Virus record (IMG/VR): IMGVR_UViG_3300031933_000083
Location: 1-47,162 of that record
DNA: 47,162 nucleotides
From: a virus
Strand: one strand, 5' to 3'
The position numbers and the translations under genes are program-made. Of the stretch, positions 2,182 through 30,336 are shown piece after piece. The notes under the pieces were generated by a model, which was not told the DNA's origin, made no database searches, and saw only the letters and a list, made by a program, of their open reading frames with translations. Positions within the stretch are counted from its first letter, which is position 1. Each line of letters opens with the position of its first letter.

Positions 2182-2640
2182 TCAATAGGTTTTTGAAATG
2201 AGGATGGAAACATCGACCTCTAACTCTTTCAAGTGTTGGTAAATCAACGGCTTCACGCAACGTATGAAATCCAATTGACCTCGACCACACCCTATGGGGA
2301 CCATCGCCAGAGACTTTATTCCCAGCTCTTTGTACTGTTCTTTAAGTGTTTTTAAACCACTCTCCACGTATTCAATCTTGGATGGGTTTCTCCAATACGC
2401 TTTGGTAGGGAATAAGAGTACCTGTTTATCGGTATCGGGTATGGGGAACACTAGAAGGTCCCCCACTTTAAAACGCTTTTCTTTACACGCTTCCTGATAG
2501 AACTCAAATAAACCAGGTACCCTATTCCTAAAGGCTAACGCCAGACCGGCTCCCATCACACCCACGGTATTCACAGGACAGGTAAGGGTCTGACAATCAC
2601 TCTTGAAAAGGTCACCCTCCCCACAGTACACTATAGTCAT
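2182..2640 (-). CDS. Macro domain protein (ADP-ribose binding or hydrolysing)
   Basis: 152 residues forming a complete macro domain. The first loop is PVNTVGVMGAGLALAF at residues 22-37, where the Asn and Gly-rich turn bind ADP-ribose. The second phosphate loop is VPIGCGRGQLDF near residues 113-124. The loop resembles DarG- and TARG1-type macro domains, which remove ADP-ribose from DNA or proteins. In a phage this could counter host ADP-ribosylation defence (DarT type) or recycle ADP-ribose phosphates; that role is inferred. Its start overlaps the preceding stop as ATGA. Confidence 0.85.
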   Translation of the reverse strand: MTIVYCGEGDLFKSDCQTLTCPVNTVGVMGAGLALAFRNRVPGLFEFYQEACKEKRFKVGDLLVFPIPDTDKQVLLFPTKAYWRNPSKIEYVESGLKTLKEQYKELGIKSLAMVPIGCGRGQLDFIRCVKPLIYQHLKELEVDVSILISKTY

Positions 2641-6053: not shown

Positions 6054-7331
6054 ATGTTAAAAGAAGACTACTTTAAATTGGGCTTAAAGACCCGCGCTTA
6101 TCACCATAAAGATTGGATCATGAATGTGTTCAGTCTGACACGGGGTGGTGAACAAAATTATCCACTGACGGTGGTGCGGACCGATAAAACGGTTGGGTTT
6201 AAACAGGGCGACGCTATTGAACCCTTAGAAGGGGTTAAAGTGGATGAACCCATTTTCTCATTCAAGGATAAACTGGTGTTGGAACCGGGTGATCTTGAGA
6301 ACCTTACTGAGCGTGTTGAAACCACGTATGGAATTGCGCTCGTTAATGCGATTGTGTTGGTCTACCCCTTTGGTGATAAAATACCCTTTATCAACGGGGA
6401 GGTTTCAGCCAAACAGTTGGAACGCATTATAGAACGACGATTGGTGGACGACCCCAAAGAGGGTGAAAGTGTCGCTCCAGAGAGTATCACTGTCGGCGAA
6501 TACCGTAAGTTTGTGGATGCCATGTTTTCCTTAGTGGGGTATACCCAGCTGTGTACGCCTTCCGCTACTCAGAAGTCGCTGACCACTGACCCACGGATAC
6601 CCAAGGTTCGAAAAGAACTTCTAGAGAAATACAAAGACCGGCTCAATGACCCTGCCACGATTGCTGAGATTGAGAAGGTGTTAATCCAAATGGATAAAGA
6701 ATGGCTGAAGGGTGACCCTTCTGAAGGGTTCTATATCCAGGATAAACACTACTCAATTGTGCGTAAGAAAATGTACTTGATGCACGGGATAGAACGTGGG
6801 TTTAAAGCTGGGGGTGAGATTGAACTCATCGAGAACTCTTTGGATGAAGGCTGGGACATTACCAAGATGCCATCCATGGTAAACTCCTTGCGCGAAGGTA
6901 CATTCAATCGAGGTGCCCAAACCGCCCTGGGTGGGGAAGCCGCTAAATTCTTGGGGCGTGTATTCCAGAATGCTATCGTGGCTGAAGACGACTGTGGTAC
7001 TACGTTAGGTTGGGAACGTTTGATCACTGAAAATAACCGGATGGATTATCACGGTCTTTATCAGTTAAAGGCAGGGAAGAGTTCTGTATTGACTGAAGAG
7101 ATTCTAGAGGCGTCGGTGGGGAAAGTGTTGACTGTGCGTAGCCCGATGTTTTGTCGGACTGAGGGGGCTAGTTTCTGTGCTAAGTGTATGGGTGACAAGA
7201 TCGCCGCAAGTCCAACGTCCCTCACGATGCACGCAGTGTCGGTGGGCAGTCGTATTATGGATGCCATGATGAAAAGTATGCATGGTAAGAAGTTGGAAAC
7301 CGCTGAGTTTTTAATCAGTGACATACGTTAA
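6054..7331 (+). CDS. RNA polymerase beta' C-terminal fragment, probably virion RNAP
   Basis: 425 residues. Landmarks match the middle and C-terminal part of bacterial beta': EDDCGTTL (first Cys of the second zinc site), then VRSPMFCRTEGASFCAKCMG (remaining Cys ligands), then SVGSRIMDAMMKSMHGKK in the position of the helix leading into the trigger loop. The protein stops about there, much shorter than the beta' C-terminal subunit at 11280-13226. It is on the plus strand with virion-type neighbours and no early motif, so I assign it to the virion RNAP, as with phiKZ gp80. The assignment to virion rather than non-virion enzyme is inference. Confidence 0.85.
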   Translation: MLKEDYFKLGLKTRAYHHKDWIMNVFSLTRGGEQNYPLTVVRTDKTVGFKQGDAIEPLEGVKVDEPIFSFKDKLVLEPGDLENLTERVETTYGIALVNAIVLVYPFGDKIPFINGEVSAKQLERIIERRLVDDPKEGESVAPESITVGEYRKFVDAMFSLVGYTQLCTPSATQKSLTTDPRIPKVRKELLEKYKDRLNDPATIAEIEKVLIQMDKEWLKGDPSEGFYIQDKHYSIVRKKMYLMHGIERGFKAGGEIELIENSLDEGWDITKMPSMVNSLREGTFNRGAQTALGGEAAKFLGRVFQNAIVAEDDCGTTLGWERLITENNRMDYHGLYQLKAGKSSVLTEEILEASVGKVLTVRSPMFCRTEGASFCAKCMGDKIAASPTSLTMHAVSVGSRIMDAMMKSMHGKKLETAEFLISDIR

Positions 7332-13230: not shown

Positions 13231-14154
13231 TCATTTCTCCTCTGGACGGTAAATAAATTCACTTCCAGCACATTGCATGATGTGTCGGATGAATACTAGG
13301 TTACGTCCGTTACCAACTGGGTAACGTTTACGGTCAATAACCTCCGGTATATTGCTAGGTTTGTCTGCCTTATAAATGTTAGACAGGATTTCCTTATGGA
13401 CAGTCGGATTATTGGACTGGTCAATCAGGTCTGCCACAGTGTCCGATCCAGCGGCTGCACTCACCAAACGCACTTCCGTTTCACCCAACATGCGGACAGG
13501 CTGCGCACGACCGGGTGTGGCAAACTTATCGAACTTCGTAAGCTTAGCCGGAATACCAAAGTGCTGAAGTTTGGCTGACGATACCCCTGACCAGTCTGAG
13601 CCGGTTTTCTCTAGCAGTATCATGTAGATACTTCCGATCAAGATATCGTTCTTTGTTGTAACCAGTCTTCCAGAGCGACCACGGTACGTGACCGGACCAA
13701 TGTGGGGAGGGTAGTGCTGTTTCAACAGCTTCACGGTTTCCACGTCACTGGCAGGGTTGTCTGTGGGTAACCAGATATAGACACCTTGTTTAACCACCGA
13801 CTCCACATGCGTCCTGGGTGTTCCTTTGTACTCAGGAGATGTCATCAGATCGAACATCTTCGGACTGATGATTTTATAGTACCCCAAAAGGTACTCCCAT
13901 GCCTGTGCAACTAGTGCTTCCGTGAACAGTGAAGACGGGACTGACTCCCCCTTCTCTGCAACAGGTGATAACCCAAACATTGTCCTCACACGTTTAGTAA
14001 CGTCTCGTGAACAGGCATTATAAAACTGCTCATAGACACATCCAAGGTTCATACGTTTGATAATGGACTCTGCATCCATTATGACGTCCGCACGGTTACC
14101 CTCAGAATCCACGGGCATGTCCTCAGTTTTCCACACCTGACAAACAACGCCTTT
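13231..14154 (-). CDS. nvRNAP beta C-terminal subunit, exon 2
   Basis: 307 codons plus stop. Translation beginning at 14154 reads KGVVCQVWKTEDMP, and further on IMDAESIIKRMNLG (the bacterial PxGVPSRMNIGQ region). This continues exactly the beta motif that breaks off at the end of exon 1, so that joining 15995 to 14154 gives GQHGNKGVV. The first Lys restored by splicing corresponds to a conserved active-site Lys (K1073 in E. coli numbering as I recall it). Unspliced RNA could start only at GTG 14136. The stop is followed after 4 nt by the beta' gene. Confidence 0.9.
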   Translation of the reverse strand, partial: KGVVCQVWKTEDMPVDSEGNRADVIMDAESIIKRMNLGCVYEQFYNACSRDVTKRVRTMFGLSPVAEKGESVPSSLFTEALVAQAWEYLLGYYKIISPKMFDLMTSPEYKGTPRTHVESVVKQGVYIWLPTDNPASDVETVKLLKQHYPPHIGPVTYRGRSGRLVTTKNDILIGSIYMILLEKTGSDWSGVSSAKLQHFGIPAKLTKFDKFATPGRAQPVRMLGETEVRLVSAAAGSDTVADLIDQSNNPTVHKEILSNIYKADKPSNIPEVIDRKRYPVGNGRNLVFIRHIMQCAGSEFIYRPEEK

Positions 14155-15994
14155 CGAATTGTCCAGACAGCTCGCTACACTGTCCCGGCTTGTCTCGGTT
14201 CCCCGAGCAGCCCGCTGTACGTTTCCGCACAGTCCAGACTATATCTTCACCCTTCTTATAAAAGTTAGGGTGCTCCACATTTCTTCCGCCAAACGCTTGC
14301 GGCTTTACAGGGCGGTGAACCCCTTAGTCGTTGAGCACATCCCATAACCCACTGATAGGTAGGTCTTAGGGACTTCGCTGCGGATTACCCCACATAACCA
14401 CCTTTTTACCTATACCGAAGTGATTAGCTTCGCCCCCATGGGGTACGTTACGTACCGGTCACTGTTTCCAGCATGGGTTGGTAGTGATTACTCAAAGGGC
14501 GTCCCCGCAATTAGAGGAGACTCACTACACCCTCTCAGGTGTAGCGAACAATTCTAAACTGTCAAATAAGTCAAACGATATCCGTCAACGTTACGTTTTC
14601 GAGCAATTGCTTTAATGACATCGTTTTTAGTTTTCAGAATATGTTGGAAATGGGCCGACGCTTTTTTGATGTTAGTGAAGAAAAGTTCCTCACCATGTTC
14701 ATTCTTAGCTATAACGCCCCTCGCGTGTCCCGTCGGGTTATCACGGAACACCGCTAATTCACGTTCAGTAAACTCCGGCCAGGGAGTTTTATCCTGAACA
14801 GTCTTAAACAGATAACCACAATATGGTCTGTTATACCCTTTTATTAATTGCATCCTTGGTGCACTTACACTTTCCAGATTCAAATCCACACCCACTTGAT
14901 TTATACTCTCGTGAACTCTTACTTCTCCAGTGAATACATTCTTCGACAGTACTTTGGTAGGTGTAGGTAATCTCCTAAGTTCGTATTCAGGGTCGGTGAC
15001 TTCCCTCCAGTTTATATCCGGGTCTTTTTTGAATAACCAACCACCAGAACAAATTTTCTGTTCCGTTTCTGTTATCCGCTGTGTAATTGTGTGGACATTA
15101 ACTCCCGTGAACCTTGATGCTTCTTGACAACTGAAAAACTTCCTCGATTCTCCTGTCAAAACATTTTTACCATAGGTTGGGATATTTTGCGTGCGCATCC
15201 CTTCCTTGAATGCGTGTTTAACATTATCTGAGTAGGAACACCATTCCAGGTTATCAATAGCGTCATTGGTTGGGTCCCCATCTTTGTGATTAACTGTTAA
15301 ACTATCCACGTTATCAGGGTACGGGATGAAAGTCAAAGCTAGTAAACGATAACGCCCAATACTGTGTGACCCGGCATCAGAATAGAGTGAAAGGGAATGA
15401 TATCCCCCCTTGACATTGGCTTTATTTTCTTTTGGTGTTTTATAAACGTATGTCGATATAGTTTTGCCCGATTTCCAATTTTTAACCTCTCCTGCTCTGT
15501 TTATCACATAGTTGTTAAAAAATGGTATATAGTAATACCCTTCCATCACCTCACATTCAATAGGTCGTTTATAACGATATCCTAAATTCGATGGGTGTAG
15601 ATTATTTTTATCTCTGTCAATGTGGAAAGGTTCTACAAGATCAAAATACTGCGGCTGTAACCGCAACTTACCGAATGTCACCAATGTTAGTAAACTGACT
15701 AGGTAAAATTTCTCACCTTGCCACAAATCTAATTTTATTACCTGATTACCATCACAGTCGTAACCAGTTGTCAGGGGACCCCTGACCAAACTAAGGATCT
15801 GGCCATCCTCAGTTATATAAACCCTTTCCTTCACATTGGGTGAAGGAACCTCAACATATTCAGTTGGTTTTATCCTATATTTCTCAAACATAATTTCTCC
15901 ATACTAAAGTTGGATATCATAATATGGAGTTGTTTAAGATTAAAGGTTTAAACCAAAACAACTTATTCATTATTTAACTTGACAGTTTAGAACC
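14155..15994 (-). ncRNA. Group I intron in nvRNAP beta gene (1,840 nt)
   Basis: Boundaries are set by the protein motif GQHGN|KGVV: 5' exon ends in T (15995), intron ends in G (14155). The 400 nt after the ORF hold group I core segments: AATTGCGGGGA (P), AATCCGCAGCGAAG (Q), TCAACGACTA (R, 14325-14334) and GAAGATATAGTC (S, 14237-14248). P1 is unusual: 15979-15997 pairs along 19 contiguous bases with 14547-14565, three of them G-U, including the expected U-G at the splice site. The endonuclease ORF lies in the loop of that stem. P10 is weak (2 bp visible). Confidence 0.88.
14554..15891 (-). CDS. Intron-encoded HNH homing endonuclease
   Basis: 445 residues, longer than usual for the family. The HNH core is VNHKDGDPTNDAIDNLEW followed by SDNVKHAF (residues about 199-228). 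An earlier segment (HIDRDKNNLHPSNLGY, near residues 90-105) looks like a degenerate second HNH-type unit. C-terminal parts resemble NUMOD-type DNA-contact repeats (KNVLTGESRKFFSCQEAS; KNVFTGEVRVHES). GGAG precedes the ATG. It lies inside the beta intron and its last codons form part of the P1 stem. It probably cleaves intronless beta alleles and spreads the intron, as shown for an intron endonuclease of phage phiPA3 that cuts a coinfecting relative. Confidence 0.92.
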   Translation of the reverse strand: MFEKYRIKPTEYVEVPSPNVKERVYITEDGQILSLVRGPLTTGYDCDGNQVIKLDLWQGEKFYLVSLLTLVTFGKLRLQPQYFDLVEPFHIDRDKNNLHPSNLGYRYKRPIECEVMEGYYYIPFFNNYVINRAGEVKNWKSGKTISTYVYKTPKENKANVKGGYHSLSLYSDAGSHSIGRYRLLALTFIPYPDNVDSLTVNHKDGDPTNDAIDNLEWCSYSDNVKHAFKEGMRTQNIPTYGKNVLTGESRKFFSCQEASRFTGVNVHTITQRITETEQKICSGGWLFKKDPDINWREVTDPEYELRRLPTPTKVLSKNVFTGEVRVHESINQVGVDLNLESVSAPRMQLIKGYNRPYCGYLFKTVQDKTPWPEFTERELAVFRDNPTGHARGVIAKNEHGEELFFTNIKKASAHFQHILKTKNDVIKAIARKRNVDGYRLTYLTV

Positions 15995-27544: not shown

Positions 27545-27718
27545 TTAGTCAGCGTTGTCTAGCCAGTTACCTATGGTGGAGATAACCGGTGCGGGCAGTT
27601 TAACATACCCTGACACTTTACGCGGTTTCCTGAGATCCAAAACGTACAGGTGAGGTTTTAACCGATCCAGTCGTTTCAGTGTTTTTAGATCCAGTATAAT
27701 AATACCGTTGAGAGCATC
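27545..27718 (-). CDS. nvRNAP beta' N-terminal subunit, exon 3
   Basis: 57 codons plus stop, beginning GAT GCT CTC (DALNG). After joining to the mini-exon it completes NADFDGD, the metal-binding motif of beta'. It is too short to be found as a gene, and its in-frame ATG lies in the intron's last bases. The C-terminus (STIGNWLDNAD) ends the polypeptide soon after the motif, as expected for a split beta'. Total spliced protein is 472 residues. Confidence 0.88.
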   Translation of the reverse strand, partial: DALNGIIILDLKTLKRLDRLKPHLYVLDLRKPRKVSGYVKLPAPVISTIGNWLDNAD

Positions 27719-28710
27719 CATTGTTTTTTGATTAGGTCGTTACGCTAACCGTGCATCCTAGCACTTACGTTAATCTTTTCAAGTTAACTGGACTATATCT
27801 TCAATTCCTTATCGGAACAGTTCTCCGTTTCGGGTCCACTTAGTACCCTACGTCTTTCGACTAGTCTCTGAACGTTCTTCCTAGCGTGTCTCACGACACT
27901 CCGTAGAAGCTTCGCTGCTGATTGCCTAATTCTAACAGTTTTCAAACATTCACGCTCGCCTTTTCAAGCCACGTTGTAGTCTGTTAGACTCTAAAGGGTT
28001 TCCAGCAATTAGAAGAATTTAATGATAATTTAGTTTTCCGGGTGATCACTTCTTATTTAGAAGGTGGTATTGATCACAGTTCTTCTTCGATCAAGAACCC
28101 CTTAACTATCCCAGGTTTTTTCCTATCGAAGGCGTTATACTGAACAGTTCTTACAGGAACATCTATCTTTTCAGATAATTCCTTAGCGGAATTTGCCTGT
28201 ATAACCTCACCGGTAATAGTGTTGGTCGCTTTGACCTTTTTGGATTTCAGGAGTTTTTCTGGAAGTGTATTATGGCTGGGTTTTTTCAACCCAGTAGAGT
28301 ATGCATGTTTTATATTCTCACTCCTCGTCACCCATTCTAAATTGTTTGGGTCGTTATCAACTTTTATACCGTTCTTATGGTTGGGTTCTAACTTTAAGTG
28401 TTTTTTATCGACCGGTATATCAACAAAAGCCTCTGCCACTAGTCTGTGGACTCCAATTCTTTTCTGTTTCCCTGTATTTGCATCAGTGACAGAGACCCAG
28501 TTATAACCCTCATTGCCTTCCATTAGTTTAAGATCTTTGACTTTATGGTCCCATATCCTTCTGACTCTACCGTCATTGGAAACTTCTATACCTCTGTATT
28601 TTGGTAGTTTTCTCCATTCTGTCATTACAGACACCTCATTTTCTCATATGTAAGAAAGATATACCACTACCTTCCTTTTTTTAACTAAATTATCGCGACG
28701 GCAATGCTCT
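27719..28710 (-). ncRNA. Group I intron B in beta' gene (992 nt)
   Basis: The first 14 bases (28710-28697, AGAGCATTGCCGTC) match the ligated exons. GCCGUC pairs with the 5' exon end GACGGU including the U-G at the splice site (P1), and AGAGCAUU pairs along 8 bases with the 3' exon GAUGCUCU (P10, one G-U). The core after the ORF holds AATTGCTGGAAA, AATCAGCAGCGAAG, TTCAGAGACTA and GAAGATATAGTCC, the P, Q, R and S segments of group IA-type introns. The intron ends in G. The encoded HNH endonuclease lies between P1 and the core. Confidence 0.93.
28074..28625 (-). CDS. Intron-encoded HNH homing endonuclease (NUMOD4-HNH-NUMOD1)
   Basis: 183 residues from ATG 28625 with GAGG upstream. NUMOD4-like start (EWRKLPKYRGIEVSNDGRVRR), HNH core PNHKNGIKVDNDPNNLEW followed by SENIKHAY, and a C-terminal NUMOD1-like helix-turn-helix (VIQANSAKELSEKIDVPVR). 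It is encoded within intron B. It probably cleaves beta' alleles lacking the intron near the FDG codons. Confidence 0.93.
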   Translation of the reverse strand: MTEWRKLPKYRGIEVSNDGRVRRIWDHKVKDLKLMEGNEGYNWVSVTDANTGKQKRIGVHRLVAEAFVDIPVDKKHLKLEPNHKNGIKVDNDPNNLEWVTRSENIKHAYSTGLKKPSHNTLPEKLLKSKKVKATNTITGEVIQANSAKELSEKIDVPVRTVQYNAFDRKKPGIVKGFLIEEEL

Positions 28711-28719
28711 ACCGTCAAA
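28711..28719 (-). CDS. nvRNAP beta' N-terminal subunit, 9-nt exon 2 (Phe-Asp-Gly)
   Basis: TTT GAC GGT between the two introns. Without it the spliced product would read NAD-DALNG; with it NAD-FDG-DALNG, the invariant beta' motif whose Asp residues bind the catalytic magnesium. Its last six bases pair with the internal guide of intron B, and intron A ends in G directly before it. Only one in-frame, motif-restoring solution is apparent. Confidence 0.88.
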
Positions 28720-29100
28720 CCCAATGTCCAGGTCAGTCGCTACACTGACCCCGGTGTGCTAAGACACCCGCCCACGGCTTTCCCGTGGGGGCAGACTATA
28801 TCATCTTCTCACTTACTTAAATGAGAAGTCCCCTGTTTCGGAACCGCTGGTCCCTACTCCGCGCTACCGGATAGTCGTTGAACGTTCTTCCTAGCGTATC
28901 TCCCGACACTCCGTAGAAGCTTCGCTGCTGATTACCTAATTCTAACAATTTTCAAACATTCACGCCCACTTTTTCAAGTCACGTTGTAGTTTGTTAGACT
29001 CTAAAGGATTTCCAGCAATTAAAGGGAAACTACTCTACGATCGCTCGTAGAGAGGACCTTATCTTTAATGTATTCAAAGTTTTTGTTACATTAAAGGTTG
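28720..29100 (-). ncRNA. Group I intron A in beta' gene (381 nt, no ORF)
   Basis: Compact intron after exon 1 codon GAT. The core contains AATTGCTGGAAA, AATCAGCAGCGAAG, TTCAACGACTA and GAAGATGATATAGTC. A perfect 8-bp hairpin with GCGA loop (29033-29052) and a perfect 10-bp pairing (29087-29096 with 29063-29072) lie near its 5' end. P1 is shorter than in intron B: GAU with GUC plus the 10-bp extension; P10 could be UUUG with UAAG. About 150 nt of the core are nearly identical to intron B, with one compensatory base-pair change. The 5' site is set by the protein motif. Confidence 0.87.
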
Positions 29101-30336
29101 ATCAGCATTGAGTGAGCTCAAAACCAGTACACTCAAACCGACTGTATTATCACCCGGATCTGTTTTCACTCGCGTAATCCGCAACCGCTGTGCAGAACCG
29201 CGCACCAATGACGGATTACGTTGGAACATGCACGGTATGGAGTTCTCGGGACCTTCGTTAATCAATTCTTGAAAAAGTTCATCCAACAGAGGATGGTATT
29301 TCAATGTGTGTTCACGCAGGAACTTGATAGACTCGTTGGGTGTGTATCCTCGAGCCAGTAATTTACTCGTAAGATGGGTTTCCAACACCATCACTGACAT
29401 TGACCACGGCATATGAAGTTCATCATAGACGTGATTCTCTGAAAGTGATGAGATCACCGAACGGAATGAGAAGTGTAGTCTGGAACCAAAGACGTGCTTT
29501 CGGAACCATCCGTATTTACTACCCAACTGTTTACTGGCAAAGTCTTGGTAGTAGTTGGCTAACTTCACGATAGCCTTTACTGAATGAGACTCCTTCTTAG
29601 TCAAGCTGACTGGGGTGATGGAATTCTCGATGGACGAGATCGTACGGATGGCATCAATCGCAGGTGTCATGCTTGTGTCTGCATACATCCCAGTGGAGGT
29701 GGATTCTGTAATGAATGCCAACTTACTTGGGATCGGTATATACCGCGTGAAGATCGCTTCACGGTACCGTTGAATGAACGCCCAGAAAAGGTCTTTGTCT
29801 TTGTTACTGTTTTGGACGATGTTATTCTCAAACAACAACTTCATGATACTATCAAAGTTGTCATAGAAGTTATTCAACCCACGGGGGACGCCCAACTTCT
29901 TCAGTTGCTGGATTTTAGGTGGGTAGGGGTCTGTAGGGACCTTGTAGTGAGGATTACAGATCCACTCAATGACATTATGTCCGTTGAATGAAAACCGCTT
30001 AGAGAATATAATCCAAGCGTCTGGGTTGATCAAGGTTTTAACCCCTTCTGGCGCTGCTATCCAGAGGGCGGATTCCAAGGGTCGTTCTGTCACAGAGACA
30101 CAGAACGTATTGCAGTTAGGACATTTAATCCCAACATTATACTCACCTGTCACCTTCCCACAATCGCAAGAAGGTAAGACGTCTAACGAGTCCCCTTCAT
30201 AACGCGTCATGATCAGGTTGTTGAGCTTTTCCTTTTCCTCCTGGGAGTTTACATTGAAGTGATTCACAATGATGGATTCTGACGCCATCGAATGGAATAA
30301 CTCTTCTTGATTTATCAGAATGCGACTTACGCCCAT
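29101..30336 (-). CDS. nvRNAP beta' N-terminal subunit, exon 1
   Basis: 412 codons. The zinc ribbon Cys57-x-Cys59-x12-Cys72-x2-Cys75 has the same spacing as the beta' zinc site of E. coli. FGSRLHFSFRSVIS (near 286-299) corresponds to the GKRVDYSGRSVI region, and CMFQRNPSLVRGSAQRLRI to the NRAPTLHRLGIQ segment. The exon ends VLSSLNAD, where beta' continues FDGD. Unspliced translation stops four codons into the intron. It follows ChmA, as gp55 follows gp54 in phiKZ. A terminator lies between ChmA and this gene, so it may have its own promoter, which I could not identify. Confidence 0.92.

Follow-up and report, generated by a model that had tools for sequence, protein, structure and literature searches.

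A nine-base exon between two group I introns in the catalytic motif of a jumbo-phage RNA polymerase gene

Tandem introns and short exons in known systems

The closest tandem arrangement that we found is that of Twort orf142, in which two similar group I introns (introns 2 and 3) lie in one phage gene with a short exon of 23 nt between them, and skipping of that exon has been observed (PMC10136302, citing earlier work). According to the same source, this exon and one of 34 nt in the Coxiella 23S rRNA gene are the shortest natural exons between two bacterial or phage group I introns that came to our notice. Within the Bastillevirinae, PMC11878797 describes an intron pair in rNDPL of phiNIT1, with a small exon whose length is not given, and exon skipping in TerL of SIOphi, both in genes other than the one considered here. 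Mini-exons of 1-3 bp separate neighbouring introns in the mitochondria of fungi and a placozoan, although these are organelles and the single-base case lies between group II introns (PMC12308204).

Single introns at polymerase active sites are also known. The phiPA3 gene for gp210 carries an HNH-bearing group I intron at the conserved aspartates of a jumbo-phage RNA polymerase (Birkholz et al. 2024, PMC11620839), but the gene encodes beta of the virion polymerase and the intron is a single one. In phiKZ gp55/gp56/gp56.1 the same gene and motif as in the present work hold an HNH-bearing group I intron and the protein is one joined chain, with its motif given as 417-DFDGD-421 of gp55 in the structure paper (PMC8287921); there, however, only one intron is found, at N^A. 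At the locus described below two introns flank an exon of 9 nt, not 23 nt as in Twort orf142, and this exon lies inside the catalytic motif, where its loss would be fatal. The kind of arrangement is already known; its degree and its recurrence appear to be new when set against the open-access literature, in which no paper reporting this tandem arrangement was found.

The interrupted beta' gene and its nine-base exon

The window analysed here is a 47-kb IMG/VR record (47,162 nucleotides), part of the genome of a phiKZ-like jumbo phage whose genes at this locus lie on the minus strand. The interrupted gene encodes the N-terminal part of the beta' subunit of the non-virion RNA polymerase (nvRNAP) and is a homologue of phiKZ gp55; tblastn matches to this part were obtained in 280 phage records, and its best solved-structure match in the PDB was the phiKZ nvRNAP chain 7ogp_A (E 2.9e-32). 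Both this homology and the presence of NADFDGD once the exons are joined place the product among the phiKZ-type nvRNAP beta' proteins. Exon 1 (29101-30336, minus strand), which was identified by tblastn and by its match to 7ogp_A and whose boundary was set by splice logic, ends in ...LSSLNAD; exon 3 (27545-27718, minus strand) opens with DALNGIIILDLK, runs to NWLDNAD and a stop, and aligns with the gp56.1 part of 7ogp_A.

Positions 27719-29100 are the outer limits of two group I introns on the minus strand. The upstream one, intron 1 (29100-28720), bears the bases of the "intron A" of a preliminary description of this DNA; it interrupts NAD^FDG and has no ORF. The downstream one, intron 2 (28710-27719), lies at FDG^D and holds, between P1 and the core, a 186-aa HNH endonuclease ORF (28074-28634, minus strand; Pfam HNH_3, 34 bits) related to phiKZ056. 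The covariance-model match to Rfam group I introns that had been proposed as a check was obtained for both: the conserved P3-P9 core scored 69.5 bits in intron 1 and 89.1 bits in intron 2 against RF00028, whose cut-off is 50 bits. A U precedes the 5' splice site and a G ends the intron in each case; in intron 2 this U belongs to a U.G pair. Of the two, intron 2 alone has the intact endonuclease ORF of a homing intron, and the HNH protein presumably makes it mobile.

Elsewhere in the window, a third group I intron (14136-15974, minus strand; core 14215-14578; RF00028, 88.3 bits) with a 445-aa HNH ORF interrupts a beta-subunit gene after HGNG, the exon resuming at VWKTEDMPVD. An ORF at 2182-2640 (minus strand) resembles a macro-domain (ADP-ribose-binding) protein, as judged from its sequence only.

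Between introns 1 and 2 remain the nine bases TTTGACGGT (28711-28719, minus strand). Their spacing had been given correctly in the preliminary description, which missed that these bases form an exon within the catalytic motif: they supply FDG of NADFDGD in the joined product, and relatives have this motif uninterrupted. Read as RNA, exon 1 ends in ...AAUGCUGAU (NAD), UUUGACGGU (FDG) stands between the introns, and GAUGCUCUC (DAL) opens exon 3; the three exons join to LSSLNADFDGDALNG, in which NADFDGD is the invariant Mg-binding motif, unbroken in the majority of the relatives retrieved. Since the motif is split as NAD, FDG and D, its three metal-binding active-site aspartates are encoded on three exons.

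The splice rule was applied to phiKZ as a positive control, where it predicted GCGCCUAAU^...^GCUGAUUUU and thus the product APN-ADFDGDQLN. Exactly this sequence is held by the solved single chain 7ogp_A, which is entered as 'PHIKZ055 | PHIKZ056.1'. The phiKZ gene is split at N^A, yet its protein is one chain with the motif whole, which is consistent with natural splicing inside the motif. We infer that in the present phage, too, both introns are removed with FDG retained.

Guide sequences point the same way for intron 2, whose first 14 bases, AGAGCAUUGCCGUC (28697-28710, minus strand), pair with the ligated exons GACGGU^GAUGCUCU at 14 of 14 positions, with no mismatch if G-U pairs are counted, to give a P1 of 6 bp and a P10 of 8 bp. 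The duplex amounts to -22.4 kcal/mol, a value reached by 0.1% of shuffled sequences. For intron 1, a guide immediately after the 5' end was rejected because a hairpin begins there, and the guide was placed 3' of this hairpin. The proposed guide, UAAG-GUC (29055-29061, minus strand), would form a P1 of 3 bp with GAU and a P10 of 4 bp with UUUG, a 3+4 bp pairing to GAU^UUUG that is weak when taken by itself, as 22% of shuffles do equally well. This less certain assignment is backed by its position and by its likeness to GAUCAAGGUCC, the guide of the intron at the same site in contig L041, where 4+6 bp are formed.

Splicing would follow the usual two steps of group I introns in each case. Intron 2 would read the last six bases of the nine-base exon as its 5' exon (P1) and the first eight bases of exon 3 as its 3' exon (P10), and intron 1 would read GAU of exon 1 and the first four bases of the nine-base exon. 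On these guide assignments, the first four bases of the exon would be a P10 partner and the last six a P1 partner; the contacts of both introns would then fit within nine bases, making the exon just long enough for both.

Introns at the same motif in other phages

The same two sites, D^F and G^D, are occupied together in the metagenomic phage L016, with a 9-nt exon of TACGACGGT, and in Aeromonas phages PS1 (L009, 2006-2488) and PS2 (L302, 1485-1967), with a 9-nt exon of TTCGACGGT. The IMG/VR contigs are assemblies; PS1 and PS2 are isolates. In the GenBank records of PS1 and PS2 the introns are unannotated, the beta' CDS ends inside intron 1, and the HNH gene alone is named. Introns before N and at G^D are found in two further phages, with an exon of 21 nt between them in L125 and of 20 nt in L152. 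Contig L041 (5249-6660) has three introns within 18 coding bases, at N^A, D^F and D^Q, which leave exons of 6 nt (GCGGAT) and 12 nt (TTTGATGGTGAT) and a joined product, KAPNADFDGDALIL, that reads NADFDGDALIL; its first intron scored 65.5 bits in Rfam and its third only 21.8 bits, and the second was identified by visual inspection of its conserved motifs.

Single introns were located at G^D (among the matches listed: L060, Aeromonas D3, L030, L179, L216, L253 and L293), at D^F (L056, L057), at N^A (phiKZ, T2P, L023), at FD^GD (L051), at D^Q (PS119XW, PA7) and before N (LucasX). Matches from the pattern scan for G^D were mostly due to chance, and only those with an intron core and NADFDG context were kept. 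By the sequences of these genes, the NADFDGD codons are a homing hotspot that offers six or more insertion positions. A further group I intron lies in the same gene about 50 codons upstream of NADFDGD in contig L045 (5137-5499).

The nearest relative of the window's beta', at 56% identity, is encoded by L060 (JACUUH010000001.1), a 209-kb contig labelled as a gammaproteobacterial MAG that carries an HNH intron at FDG^D and probably represents a jumbo phage that was assigned to a bacterial bin. One scan of bacterial genomes yielded L060 only, and an exact DNA scan of IMG/VR for the conserved P6-P7 string gave no match.

Likeness of the two introns and its origin

Introns 1 and 2 align in one ungapped block, at 28872-29021 and 27862-28011 (both minus strand), in which 138 of 150 bases are identical (92%, E 1e-60); this block comprises P4-P6, and it bears out the claim that about 150 nt of core are some 90% alike. 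Nothing else aligns, and P1, P2, P8, P9 and ORF content all differ. The third group I intron of the window has no DNA match to either. The 5' domains of the two introns fold into the same structure, and of their 13 differences (one just beyond the 150-base block) six fall on paired bases, without one pair being broken in either intron. CTAACAA/TTGTTAG in intron 1 against CTAACAG/CTGTTAG in intron 2 is, as had been noticed, a true double change, from A-U to G-C; a second double change of the same kind, which had been overlooked, was found in the inner hairpin (ACTTGAAAAAGT versus GCTTGAAAAGGC), together with a change from U-A to U-G. GTGTC/GATAC versus GTGTC/GACAC is the expected replacement of a G-U by a G-C pair. 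When 13 substitutions of the same kinds were placed at random, the outcome seen here, two or more double changes and no broken pair, had a P of 0.00033. Among ten related introns, the P4-P6 structure was paired in 94% of cells, compared with 31-42% for slid versions, and in the helix with the CTAACAA/TTGTTAG change both sides vary at all 8 pairs, with 96% paired. The absence of broken pairs and the two double changes agree with the earlier suggestion that both introns are kept functional; both look selectively maintained.

To examine the extent of the likeness, the introns were divided at the 5' strand of P7. Between introns 1 and 2, 13 of 151 positions differ in the 5' part, which holds P4-P6 (8.6%), and 65 of 147 in the 3' part (44%). 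Two pairs of introns, each pair at one site in related phages, were close enough to act as controls: PS119XW and PA7 differ at 15/150 and 10/169 positions (10% and 6%), and PS1 and D3 at 24/152 and 30/118 (16% and 25%), so that the contrast between the halves of introns 1 and 2 is abnormal against either (Fisher P 6e-5 and 7e-4, respectively). The intron pair of L016 shows a like pattern, with differences of 24% in P4-P6 and 54% in the 3' half and best matches in P4-P6 only; in L152 (reverse complement, 6171-6922) the pattern is the reverse of that in the window, the tandem introns being mutual best matches for the 3' half (67%) but not for P4-P6. Trees of the intron halves disagree in places. 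The 3' half of intron 1 groups with that of the PS1 intron at its own site (94/80), the 3' half of intron 2 has its nearest sequence by identity in L060 (61%), and the P4-P6 of intron 2 was rejected as sister to the P4-P6 of L060, which is at the same site (AU p 0.0012). Many nodes are weak, including the one that joins introns 1 and 2 in the 5'-half tree (71/0), where L253 falls beside them. An exchange of P3 strands, considered as proof that the P3 helices are independent, was dropped as indecisive (own strands -7.9/-5.6, swapped strands -5.6/-5.0 kcal/mol).

The preliminary description took the introns for recent relatives that arose by duplication or ectopic homing. Related they are, but they are alike in P4-P6 only. 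A copy of one whole intron to a site nine bases away, with outer parts that then changed fast to fit the new site, would account for related introns at adjacent sites and for P4-P6 blocks that are by far each other's best matches; moreover, the AU test does not reject the 3' halves as sisters (p 0.286), which leaves room for duplication followed by fast change. We nevertheless consider such a copy unlikely, as likeness in the 3' halves amounts to 56% and makes neither the best match of the other, their contrast with P4-P6 exceeds that of the controls, P1, P2, P8, P9 and ORF content differ, and other introns occupy both sites in other phages. Because the same two sites are occupied together in L016, PS1 and PS2, the arrangement need not be recent. 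It is more doubtful still that both introns took P4-P6 independently from one unsampled donor family with no exchange between neighbours: the introns of this set are modular, same-site relatives falling into different P4-P6 groups, and sampling is thin, but database introns reach at most about 77-83% identity to either block, against 92% between the two, and two acquisitions of one block would be less economical.

Two readings that deny the nine bases or the gene a function appear very improbable. Removal of the pair as one unit, by exon skipping or as a composite twin-ribozyme element, has precedents between similar IA2 introns in Twort orf142 (PMC10136302) and the SIOphi terminase (PMC11878797). 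Here, however, skipping would fuse NAD in frame with DAL and delete FDG of the active site, leaving a dead polymerase; the guides do not fit the distant sites, GCCGUC of intron 2 matching the nine-base exon but failing to fit CUGAU of exon 1; and in three lineages the nine bases correspond precisely to the codons that are missing, a fact on which the twin-ribozyme reading was rejected. Decay of one or both introns in a dead gene, for which the lower score of intron 1 and its weak P1 could be cited, we regard as the least credible of all, since no P4-P6 pair is broken, the exons, the frame and the intron 2 guide are intact, and the polymerase is expected to be essential.

The restriction of high similarity to P4-P6 suggests that a block of about 150 bp passed between two older introns at adjacent sites, and not that one intron was recently duplicated. 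We infer from the sequences that the two introns probably arrived separately at the motif, and that their P4-P6 domains would later have become alike by a non-reciprocal transfer, with intron 1 perhaps as the donor and intron 2 as the recipient; since P4-P6 folds as a self-contained unit, a transfer of this kind could be tolerated. Taken as a whole, two separate introns that belong to a single broad phage family and flank an FDG exon at a homing hotspot, with a later transfer of P4-P6, are likely to be the right explanation of this locus. With somewhat less assurance, we favour the wider proposal that NADFDGD of jumbo-phage RNA polymerases is an intron-stacking site, with six or more insertion points spread over some 24 bases, as many as three introns at a time and exons of 6-21 nt, at which neighbours may swap P4-P6, so that ribozyme modules would evolve in concert while site-specific ends stay apart.

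The lower bound on exon length between neighbouring group I introns of phages falls with this locus to 9 nt, and with one contig to 6 nt. Exons of this size are overlooked by annotation, as in the GenBank beta' of PS1 and PS2, two cultured phages that make the arrangement testable. The pattern of likeness suggests that swapping of P4-P6 domains is a mode of evolution of group I introns, and the position of the introns gives two or three ribozymes control over the catalytic aspartates of a presumably essential polymerase.
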